From: a virus
Direction: 5' to 3' (one strand)
DNA length: 22,481 nt
Virus record (IMG/VR): IMGVR_UViG_3300030107_005733
Location: 1 to 22,481 of that record
The notes under the pieces are model-generated. The model was not told the DNA's origin. It did no database searches and saw nothing but the letters and a program-made list of their open reading frames with translations. Below are positions 5,434-21,958 of this stretch, in pieces. Positions within the stretch are counted from its first letter, which is position 1. Each line of letters opens with the position of its first letter. The position numbers and the translations under genes are program-made.

Positions 5434-6417
5434 CTACTCGTAATTCATAATCAAAACCTCTTCACCTGTGGATTGATCTACTCCTTCTTTAGCGCCTGCA
5501 GGTTTCACAAACTCTTTTGTTTCCCAATGAAATTTATCTTTTGGATACATATCACTTAGTTCAGAGAAATCATAATAAGATAATGAAAACTTACCCTTCA
5601 TGTTGTGAAGACAACTCATCAACTCATAGTGCTGTTCTCTACCAAAGCGATGTAGACTATAATATAACTCAGTACTCCAATAAGGTGGGTCAACATAAAA
5701 ATATGTAGTTTTAGAATCATATTTTGCAATAACTTCTTCAAACGACATATTCTCACAAGTATCAATTTTTTTTAGTTTAGGAATAACTTTATCGCTGGTA
5801 AGTCTATTATAGAAGGCTTTAAACTTGGAGTTATACTTTCCTTTATAATCTTGAAATTCTGAATCCACTGGGTCTATACCAGAGAATGAAGAAGTAAGAA
5901 TATATGCATACTTCATCGCAGCTACTTGGTTCTTTTGACCTGCTTTAATCTTATCACCAAAAACATCTCTCATATTATTATTGTTACACTGACGAGATGC
6001 TCGTGCATGAGTCAACGCTTCATTCAACGCTTTACGTTGCTTACCTTTAATATTTTTGTCCTCTAAGATTTTTCTTATCTGTTTGATAGCAAAGTCTGTA
6101 TAGAATAAACTTTCCTTACAATCATAGAAATAATCTCTACAAGATTCTGATAGTTCGGGTGAATCTTTGGTTTGTAAAGGTGGTTTCTTATTATCAATAA
6201 ACTTTGAGAATACTTTTGGGTGTGATGAGCATCGGAATAAATTAGTCATGTAAGGATTAAAATCATTATAGATAGCCTTATCACATCTTTCATGTATGTC
6301 TGAATTAACATATACCCAATACGCACCACCAAAAACTTCTACATATGTATCACATTCGGGAACAAAACCACTGATCCAATCTGCCATTCTTGCTTTTCCA
6401 CCAATATAACTTAAGAT
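5434..6417 (-). CDS. dam: D12-class (Dam-like) DNA adenine methyltransferase, apparent AUC start
   Basis: This enzyme would transfer a methyl group from S-adenosylmethionine to N6 of adenine in phage DNA, probably to evade host restriction or time DNA processing. Counting from the proposed start, it has the N-terminal Dam motif SYIGGKARMADWI (residues 3-15), an AdoMet-site strand YVEVFGGAYW (about 25-34), YNDFNP, and the catalytic DPPY at 243-246. The first ATG is at 6387, but starting there would delete the conserved GGK motif, which is encoded in frame upstream. Between the in-frame stop at 6468-6466 and ATG 6387 there is no ATG, GTG or TTG. GAGG lies 5 nt before the ATC codon at 6417, which I take as the start (327 aa). 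The gene is first after the promoter at 6451-6479. If ATG 6387 is used instead, the product is 317 residues and probably impaired. Confidence 0.85.
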   Translation of the reverse strand: MLSYIGGKARMADWISGFVPECDTYVEVFGGAYWVYVNSDIHERCDKAIYNDFNPYMTNLFRCSSHPKVFSKFIDNKKPPLQTKDSPELSESCRDYFYDCKESLFYTDFAIKQIRKILEDKNIKGKQRKALNEALTHARASRQCNNNNMRDVFGDKIKAGQKNQVAAMKYAYILTSSFSGIDPVDSEFQDYKGKYNSKFKAFYNRLTSDKVIPKLKKIDTCENMSFEEVIAKYDSKTTYFYVDPPYWSTELYYSLHRFGREQHYELMSCLHNMKGKFSLSYYDFSELSDMYPKDKFHWETKEFVKPAGAKEGVDQSTGEEVLIMNYE

Positions 6418-6450
6418 AGTAACCTCGTTTCTAAAAAATTTTATATATAT

Positions 6451-6479
6451 AATATAACCATACCTCTACATATTGTCAA
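6451..6479 (-). promoter_or_regulatory. Sigma70-type promoter for the methylase gene
   Basis: The minus strand has TTGACA (6479-6474), 17 nt, then TATATT (6456-6451) preceded by TGGT. The TGA stop of the upstream gene is embedded in the -35 box. The predicted transcript starts near 6444, leaving a leader of about 27 nt before the proposed ATC start. Confidence 0.8.
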
Positions 6480-13163: not shown

Positions 13164-13192
13164 AATATAACCAATACTGCCCGTTTTGTCAA
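13164..13192 (-). promoter_or_regulatory. Sigma70-type promoter for the DNA polymerase gene
   Basis: The minus strand has TTGACA (13192-13187), 17 nt, then TATATT (13169-13164) preceded by TTGGT. The TGA stop of the upstream gene lies within the -35 box. The predicted start near 13157 gives a leader of about 20 nt before the polymerase ATG. Confidence 0.8.
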
Positions 13193-13692
13193 GTGTTTTG
13201 TTCAACATCATACCATTTTGGTTTAGTGGCTTCATCCTTCCATACAGCAATGTTTTTCTTTTCTGTTTGGTAATACTTTCTATAAGCGGCGATACTATCA
13301 CCCTCTACCTTACAGTATGGGGGCATACATTGTGGTGGTTGAGTGAAATCGCCGTAGGGTAAATTTTTTGGTAAGTGACTAAGGGCGTGTGCAAACTTAG
13401 TATCACATAGATGTATCTTATCATATCGGGATGCGTATTCTTCACATAGTCCAATAAAGTGACGATACAACCAACTATAATTTTCTGATGTTTTTCTAGC
13501 CCAAATAGTAGACGGGTGATTTTTGTAAGCTGCTCTATATATAGGTTGACCTGCTACCACATCTGCGTTATCAAGAACCCTATGAGCCGTACACAACATC
13601 TGTGCAGACTCTAAGGGCATCTTGACAACATGCTTATCTAATAAGTTGGAGGCAGCTACGGTAGGGTTTGGGTCTACATAAAATATATTGAT
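13189..13692 (-). CDS. Conserved marine-phage protein of unknown function, apparent AUC start
   Basis: Translation upstream of the first ATG (13620) stays open and gives INIFYVDPNPTVAASNLLDKH then VVKMPLESAQMLCTAHRVLD. This matches my memory of the N-terminus (MNIF..D..P, DKHVVKM..ES.Q.L..AHR) of a protein common in marine T4-like phages. The coding region therefore starts upstream, but there is no ATG, GTG or TTG between the in-frame TAA at 13710-13708 and ATG 13620. AGGAG precedes two consecutive ATC codons (13695 and 13692) by 5 and 8 nt; I take ATC 13692 as the start (167 aa). Later conserved-looking parts are NHPSTIWAR, YSWLYRHFIGLCEEY and KVEGDSIAAYRKYY. The function is unknown; it is a soluble protein rich in His, Trp and Tyr. 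Its stop overlaps the polymerase promoter. Confidence 0.75.
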   Translation of the reverse strand: MNIFYVDPNPTVAASNLLDKHVVKMPLESAQMLCTAHRVLDNADVVAGQPIYRAAYKNHPSTIWARKTSENYSWLYRHFIGLCEEYASRYDKIHLCDTKFAHALSHLPKNLPYGDFTQPPQCMPPYCKVEGDSIAAYRKYYQTEKKNIAVWKDEATKPKWYDVEQNT

Positions 13693-13722: not shown

Positions 13723-13751
13723 AATATACGAAACTTTATCTAATTTGTCAA
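13723..13751 (-). promoter_or_regulatory. Sigma70-type promoter for the conserved phage protein gene
   Basis: TTGACA (13751-13746), 17-nt spacer, TATATT (13728-13723) on the minus strand, starting 4 nt beyond the stop of the ParB-like gene. The predicted start near 13716 leaves a leader of about 24 nt before the proposed ATC start. Confidence 0.8.
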
Positions 13752-14959: not shown

Positions 14960-15461
14960 GCTTTTTTACTTTCAAATATTTTTTATTTTCTTCTGTAAAT
15001 TTATCAAAGTATTTTGTATTCTTTAGATTTTGATGTGCTTTATTAAGTTCATCAACATACGCTACATTTATTAGAAAGTAGGGTGCATTGCTTCTTGTCT
15101 TTACACCGCCTACTTCAAATTCATCATCGGGGTGAAAGGTTATCACTTTTACATAACCCATCTTTCTTTTTCGCAACTCTCTATTAATATAATTTTGAAA
15201 TTTTTTATACTCATGCACCTTAATGTCAGATATGTGAGCGACAATCATGGACATATAGTTGTCTTCCATATCCCACTCATCTATCAAATCAAAAATAGAG
15301 TTTTCTTTACCAACTTCAAAAACCTCATATTTTAATTTACCAGATGCTCTTTCTTGTTTTACAAATGGACAGATAGGAAATCCACCAAAAGCTTCATTTG
15401 GAGTTGCAAGCCAATCTATATACTCATCTATTTTTGCAATTATTGTTTCTCTATCTTGCAT
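14955..15461 (-). CDS. Unknown protein (168 aa) downstream of dCMP deaminase
   Basis: From ATG 15461 the product is 168 residues (MQDRETIIAKIDEYIDWLAT at the N-terminus). It has a FPICPFVK segment, an alpha/beta middle (YMSMIVAHISDIKVHEYKKF), a strand GYVKVITFHPDDEFE and a strand YFLINVAYVDE, so it is probably a globular alpha/beta enzyme or binding protein. I recognise no family. GGAG lies 7 nt before ATG 15461, which is better placed than an ATG five codons upstream. The start overlaps the deaminase gene end by 22 nt and the TGA stop lies in the -35 box of the next promoter. Confidence 0.65.
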   Translation of the reverse strand: MQDRETIIAKIDEYIDWLATPNEAFGGFPICPFVKQERASGKLKYEVFEVGKENSIFDLIDEWDMEDNYMSMIVAHISDIKVHEYKKFQNYINRELRKRKMGYVKVITFHPDDEFEVGGVKTRSNAPYFLINVAYVDELNKAHQNLKNTKYFDKFTEENKKYLKVKKP

Positions 15462-15880
15462 ACCGGCACTCCACATTGTTCAAGAAACCTTTTACCATCA
15501 TCTAAACGATATTCGTCTATATAGAAAAACTTTTTAATACCGGCGGATACTACTAATTTAGCACAAGATATACAGGGAGTCATCGTGCAATACATTATAC
15601 AACCATCCGTATTGATACCATTACGAGCCGCATACCCTATTGCGTTCTGTTCTGCGTGTATACCAAGAAAACAAGAGCCATTAGAATCTTTACCACACTT
15701 TTCTTCACCACCATCATCTATACAATTTAAAGAACCAGAAGGCGGCCCGTTATAACCAAAAGAAATTATTCTATTATCCTTGATTAAAAGGGCTGCCTGT
15801 TTAGCTTTAACACAAGATGATCTTTGAGAAACTAGTTTTGTTGTCTCTACAAATAAATCGTTAAAAGTTATTCTACTCAA
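15440..15880 (-). CDS. Deoxycytidylate (dCMP) deaminase
   Basis: This zinc enzyme converts dCMP to dUMP, feeding dTMP synthesis. With the TTG start at 15880 the protein is 146 residues. It has RSSCVKAKQAALLIKDNRI, FGYNGPPSG, the catalytic HAE (H75, E77) in GIHAEQNAIGYAARNG, and the zinc cysteines C103/C106 in TPCISCAK. I prefer TTG 15880 because AGGAG lies 4-5 nt before it, the protein then begins MSRITFNDLF like family members, and TTGAGTAG overlaps the upstream stop by 8 nt. Tandem ATGs at 15904 and 15901 would add eight or seven basic residues and lack a good ribosome-binding site. It sits beside the RNR gene, consistent with dNTP supply during replication. Confidence 0.88.
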   Translation of the reverse strand: MSRITFNDLFVETTKLVSQRSSCVKAKQAALLIKDNRIISFGYNGPPSGSLNCIDDGGEEKCGKDSNGSCFLGIHAEQNAIGYAARNGINTDGCIMYCTMTPCISCAKLVVSAGIKKFFYIDEYRLDDGKRFLEQCGVPVCKIEKQ

Positions 15881-21885: not shown

Positions 21886-21958
21886 TACTCCCAACGGGAC
21901 TTGAACCCGTATTTTTGCCTTGAAAGGGCAATATCCTAACCGATTAGATGATGGGAGC
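21886..21958 (-). tRNA. tRNA-Glu (anticodon UUC)
   Basis: The 73-nt cloverleaf folds by eye. The acceptor stem GCTCCCA/TGGGAGT has a G-U first pair. A D-arm ATCT...AGGAT follows. The anticodon stem TTGCC/GGCAA has loop CTTTCAA giving anticodon TTC, and the T-arm is ACGGG-TTCAAGT-CCCGT. The discriminator is A. The terminal CCA is not encoded, so host CCA-adding enzyme is needed. It would read GAA/GAG, codons heavily used in the Glu-rich phage proteins here. Confidence 0.92.

Follow-up and report, generated by a model that had tools for sequence, protein, structure and literature searches.

The DNA analyzed here, referred to as the window, is an IMG/VR virus record of 22,481 bases, on whose minus strand a gene for a DNA methylase appears to begin at AUC. 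The features of this locus are as follows.

5434..6417, minus strand: coding sequence of a predicted D12-class adenine methylase, from ATC 6417 to the stop, 327 amino acids (PF02086, phrog_56, clade alignment)
6415..6417, minus strand: putative AUC start codon of the methylase, aligned to ATG in 70/70 distant loci and to ATT, ATA, GTG, TTG, or ATG in the clade
6423..6426, minus strand: Shine-Dalgarno (SD) sequence GAGG, 5 nt before the ATC, with an anti-SD duplex of -6.6 kcal/mol
6451..6479, minus strand: promoter-like TTGACA-17-TATATT ahead of the methylase, 11/12 matches
6466..6468, minus strand: in-frame TAG stop upstream of the methylase, from reading the sequence
6385..6387, minus strand: first canonical ATG; by clade comparison it encodes M11, which is conserved and internal rather than the start

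Read along the minus strand, the order is GAGG (6426-6423), TTACT, ATC (6417-6415), TTA AGT TAT ATT GGT GGA AAA GCA AGA, and ATG 6387. Upstream of ATC 6417 the frame stays open for 16 codons, as far as TAG 6468-6466, and no ATG, GTG, or TTG occurs in it between that stop and ATG 6387; the first-pass annotation, which had described this frame and the GAGG 5 nt before the ATC, was right in both coordinates and sequence. The residues ahead of ATG 6387, ILSYIGGKAR, lie within the region matched by the family: Pfam MethyltransfD12 (PF02086; E 2e-19, 70.8 bits versus a curated cut-off of 22) covers residues 4-298 counted from the ATC, and the match to the DNA methyltransferase family phrog_56 (E 7.4e-37) extends from residue 1. 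DPPYW, at residues 243-247, is invariant in nine clade members and contains DPPY, which we take to be the catalytic motif of D12-class methylases. By profile and by this motif the gene product is a D12-class adenine methyltransferase, with its activity predicted. PDB searches by sequence returned no solved relative, and the AdoMet-binding role proposed earlier for the GGK loop is putative.

We gathered relatives of the methylase by three scans of viral contigs, two with 3 kb flanks and one with 10 kb flanks, the last of which contributed L093; two later scans brought no new relative. Three loci that gave no methylase motif (L082, L083, and L085) were excluded from the start-codon counts, and the copies L005 (of L004) and L011 (of L010) were each taken together with their original as one clade sequence. 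The codon aligned to ATC 6417 is ATG in 70/70 more distant loci (L012-L081), eight of which also have a second, TTG-started methylase copy. The ten distinct sequences of the clade carry ATC (window), ATT (L001), ATA twice (L003 and L004), GTG three times (L007, L009, and L010), TTG (L093), and ATG twice (L002 and L008), with L004 the least certain near-cognate case owing to an alternative GTG start five codons upstream. Whether relatives have ATG at this position, a question that had been raised earlier, can thus be answered with yes for the wider family and mostly no for the closest clade.

The ten codons ahead of ATG 6387 show the signature of translated sequence. Nine clade members all have Y4, G6, G7, K8, and R10, bearing out the earlier description of a conserved N-terminal motif (YIGGK) encoded upstream of the first ATG, and M11 is invariant even in clade relatives whose ATG start sits ten codons earlier. 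Over all pairs of the ten clade sequences, differences at codon positions 1/2/3 number 113/56/226 in codons 2-10 and 260/259/375 in codons 11-28; synonymous codon differences stand at 156 versus 97 others in codons 2-10, and at 164 versus 350 others in codons 11-28. Between the window and L001, four of the first ten codons differ, all at the third position, codon 1 being ATC versus ATT and the other three changes synonymous. The third-position and synonymous excess indicates that the stretch before ATG 6387 is translated and more conserved than the codons that follow, which makes a start at ATG 6387 very unlikely.

Functional relatives starting at the equivalent of ATG 6387 had been named in advance as the observation that would count against an AUC start; we sought them and found none, all parsed relatives starting at the 6417 position. 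A shortened methylase made from ATG 6387 would begin at the first canonical codon in frame, but it would leave out ten codons under coding constraint and cut into a Pfam domain that starts at residue 4, and its relatives start ten codons earlier, so that we give this alternative almost no weight. Relatives' start codons, domain extent, and coding constraint all point the same way, and methylase translation very probably begins at AUC 6417, as had been proposed.

By comparing the ORFs of the window with eleven clade loci, we found a second gene with its conserved N-terminus ahead of all canonical start codons.

13189..13692, minus strand: coding sequence of a Pyr_excise-like DNA glycosylase, from ATC 13692, 167 amino acids (PF03013 E 1.1e-7, phrog_624 E 4.2e-54)
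13690..13692, minus strand: putative glycosylase start codon AUC; the aligned codon is ATC in L086, L087, and L088 and ATG in L095
13701..13705, minus strand: SD sequence AGGAG, 8 nt before ATC 13692
13723..13751, minus strand: promoter-like TTGACA-17-TATATT preceding the glycosylase and conserved among its AUC relatives

The canonical-start ORF of this gene (13189-13620) is without the first 24 residues. From 13695 the sequence reads ATC ATC AAT ATA TTT, and because the codon at 13695-13693 is also ATC, the start is ambiguous by one codon. The PF03013 score is 32.6 bits versus a curated cut-off of 23, and the PHROGs label for phrog_624 is only 'DNA binding protein'; the gene at 13692-13189 likely encodes a DNA-repair glycosylase of the pyrimidine dimer type, as predicted from these matches. 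Glycosylases of the window clade have AUC throughout except in L095 (ATG) and L272 (ATT), with L086 and L088 identical across the start stretch. The AUC start of the methylase, a codon that the first-pass annotation had presented as almost never used, is well supported but not a lone case: the annotation had missed this second gene and the wide occurrence of the trait.

We scanned viral contigs for the pattern GGAG, a gap of 3-9, AUH, and the NIF motif, and obtained 62 contigs; as the pattern demands GGAG and AUH, SD strength in this set is partly by construction and the counts are not frequencies. Sixty of the 62 lead into a Pyr_excise-like N-terminus, and two were dropped, L274 as unrelated, with 19 codons, and L280 for a stop after 9 codons. 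The equivalent scan for AUH methylase starts gave two clade contigs and one other match, L242, which on inspection was judged to be chance. We examined 155 Pyr_excise records, of which 152 could be parsed (L256, L280, and L291 are absent from the counts), and their 126 distinct contexts start with ATG (76), ATT (34), ATC (8), GTG (7), and TTG (1). No canonical codon lies upstream in frame in 27/42 AUH contexts. Within L161-L240, a set not picked by start codon, AUH occurs only in L191. ATA is found at 0/42 AUH glycosylase starts versus 99/366 isoleucine codons in the same genes (nominal p 1.8e-6, which is optimistic owing to sequence relatedness), suggesting that the start position is not just any isoleucine codon. 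The methylase site differs from the glycosylase site in that ATA does occur there (L003 and L004).

A tree of 122 Pyr_excise rows requires 14 or more changes of the AUH state, with at least four of them forced by well-supported branches, and AUU is present in nearly all of one 21-row clade, which was sampled via the AUH pattern. The window's phage group carries a DnaE-type polymerase. The AUU contig L270 partly resembles T4-like Synechococcus phages, a likeness that suggests the AUH trait is not confined to the window's phage group. None of the eight named phages examined has an AUH glycosylase start, six having ATG and two GTG. The record of Pseudomonas phage PaBG (L306, NC_022096.1 30698-31935) has an open, ATG-started Pyr_excise frame for which no CDS is annotated.

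We also surveyed ORFs that had not been selected for the trait, calling a case when the codon aligned to the relatives' ATG followed an SD and preceded the first canonical start by three codons or more. The 1,566 ORFs yielded eight AUH cases and one ACA, the latter in an ORF already counted; one AUH case, in L192, is weak and was not counted as real. Six of the calls come from the 251 ORFs of the window clade and are confined to two gene families. Matches with a near-cognate codon one or two codons ahead of an ATG were discarded as chance neighbors. The phage exonuclease family phrog_107 is probably a third family with AUU starts, judging from ATT after a GGAG SD in L271 (2719-3558, plus strand), L269, and L257, at a position where L291, L274, and L185 have ATG. 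An apparent ATA start in the dCMP deaminase of L094 and L272 was rejected: this stretch overlaps with the gene upstream, and the start is accounted for by a TTG that has an AGGAG SD, read directly in L094 and by analogy in L272. A deaminase-like gene of the window (15440-15880, minus strand) has a probable start at TTG 15880, after AGGAG and within the last part of the gene upstream; the first codon of its longer ORF is probably not the start.

In 32 distant ATG methylases the median SD duplex is -2.75 kcal/mol, compared with -6.6 for the window methylase, and the AUH glycosylases of the window clade have a median of -8.4 kcal/mol (n=5) versus -5.3 in 71 unselected ATG members. The clade's ATG methylases L002 and L008 also have strong SDs, so a strong SD by itself is no proof of compensation for a weak codon. 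A hairpin over the methylase SD was no stronger than in shuffles (z -0.80). The methylase and the glycosylase share a promoter-SD-AUC layout, and five promoter-like sites in the window match at 11/12 positions, two ahead of AUC genes and three ahead of ATG genes.

21034-21006, 14958-14930, 13751-13723, 13192-13164, and 6479-6451, minus strand: window promoter-like sites sharing both hexamers and a 17-nt spacer

The gene that follows each of the five either acts in DNA metabolism or has no known function. The glycosylase TTGACA-17-TATATT begins 55-59 nt upstream in the window, L086, L087, L088, L261, L276, and L283, all with ATC, and in L272, with ATT.

The window has one tRNA-Glu (ttc) gene (21886-21958, minus strand), and no tRNA gene was found in nine clade loci. 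L085 (JAKUUM010000028.1), a contig of a SAR86 MAG, has phage genes of the clade including an 83%-identical methylase fragment, which hints weakly at a possible host, though the binning may be wrong.

The place of each start, its SD, the promoter match, and the recurrence of the trait can be read from the sequences compared here. The reading we favor overall, with modest confidence, is that near-cognate AUC starts throttle DNA-acting enzymes, here the methylase and the glycosylase. Ordinary SD-directed initiation would take place at AUC 6417 and AUC 13692 with a third-base mismatch between the codon and the initiator tRNA, giving fMet as the presumed first residue, and the weak codon would be compensated in part by the strong SD. 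The net result would be a fixed low yield of these enzymes despite promoters that look strong, perhaps because they are harmful or mistimed when in excess. Initiation of this kind may also be sensitive to host IF3. The earlier suggestion that AUC keeps methylase levels low or ties them to initiation-factor state would fit the strong SDs, the consensus promoter, and the recurrence in other DNA-acting genes. A search of 15 phage records, most of them fragments, found no phage IF3.

Two alternatives to ordinary initiation at AUC were weighed. If sequencing or assembly error concealed an ATG, the failure of the viral contig scans to find a second contig with the window's own methylase start would be expected, but near-cognates occupy the same methylase site in separate contigs (L001, L003, and L004/L005), the window's glycosylase ATC and leader are repeated in the separate contig L283, and errors would not be limited to AUH as in the 1,566-ORF survey, all of which makes error extremely improbable. 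Ribosomes might instead arrive at AUC through translational coupling from the upstream gene, and reinitiation is tolerant of weak start codons; in both genes, however, ~60 nt separate the upstream stop from the AUC, with a consensus promoter in that interval or at the stop, so we consider coupling very unlikely.

It is also conceivable that AUC is the true start but merely tolerated, strong SDs rendering the start codon near-neutral in the clade or its host and allowing drift among AUN, GUG, and UUG without regulatory purpose. The seven start-codon changes on the methylase tree, with ATG, GTG, TTG, ATT, ATC, and ATA mixed, and the strong SDs of L002 and L008 speak for such drift, but it would not readily confine the survey calls to two window-clade gene families, keep AUC in most clade glycosylases, or place AUU in nearly all of the 21-row Pyr_excise clade, even one sampled by the AUH pattern; we regard tolerance as a less probable but serious contender. 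Against throttling itself stand ATG in L002, the window methylase's nearest relative in the tree, meaning that a weak start is not required for methylase function, the three of five strong promoter matches that serve ATG genes, and ATA at the methylase site in L003 and L004. A bolder proposal, that diverse phages repeatedly evolved AUU and AUC starts on DNA-acting enzymes to read the host IF3 level and so switch methylation and repair during infection, seems doubtful to us.

Throttling of the methylase and glycosylase by their start codons would have precedents in bacteria. In S. aureus, AUU and AUA starts that are paired with extended SDs reportedly reach about 10% of the yield of AUG in poor medium (PMC13009471), and non-canonical starts are repressed by IF3 (PMC5472188). 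Among 61,358 reconstructed ancestral AUG starts, one study lists a single switch to AUU and no switch to AUC or AUA, within annotation limits (PMC5622118). Among the open-access papers searched, none dealt with phage methylases or glycosylases that start at AUH. The cited work documents conserved AUH starts for only a few bacterial genes, and here such starts appear repeatedly in two phage families and probably a third. Gene callers restricted to ATG, GTG, and TTG would lose the conserved N-terminus of such enzymes in viral databases, and AUC-started phage enzymes would be a simple test bed for start-codon strength setting phage gene dosage.

The window methylase shares its domain (PF02086) and N-terminal YIGGK motif with other D12-class (Dam-like) phage methylases, and differs from them in the near-cognate start codon found in part of its clade. 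Among non-canonical starts, Streptomyces sigR (GTC) is likewise described as yield-limiting and IF3-repressed, but it uses GUC rather than AUH and encodes a sigma factor, with the start determining the ratio of this factor to RsrA (PMC5472188). infC, which encodes IF3 and starts with ATT in E. coli and ATC in Streptomyces, resembles the window genes in its near-cognate AUH start, repressed by IF3 according to the same source, but is a host gene that regulates itself, and IF3 was not found in the 15 phage records. S. aureus cvfC1 (AUU) and ccpN (AUA) also combine conserved near-cognate starts with strong, extended SDs and were measured by Ribo-Ret and reporters (PMC13009471), whereas the phage DNA enzymes are known from sequence alone. 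Among relatives, AUC is mostly kept in the window-clade glycosylases, and the methylase codon varies, ATG (L002 and L008) included. The window genes match the infC/ccpN type in two features: no canonical start before the conserved N-terminus, and a strong, properly spaced SD.
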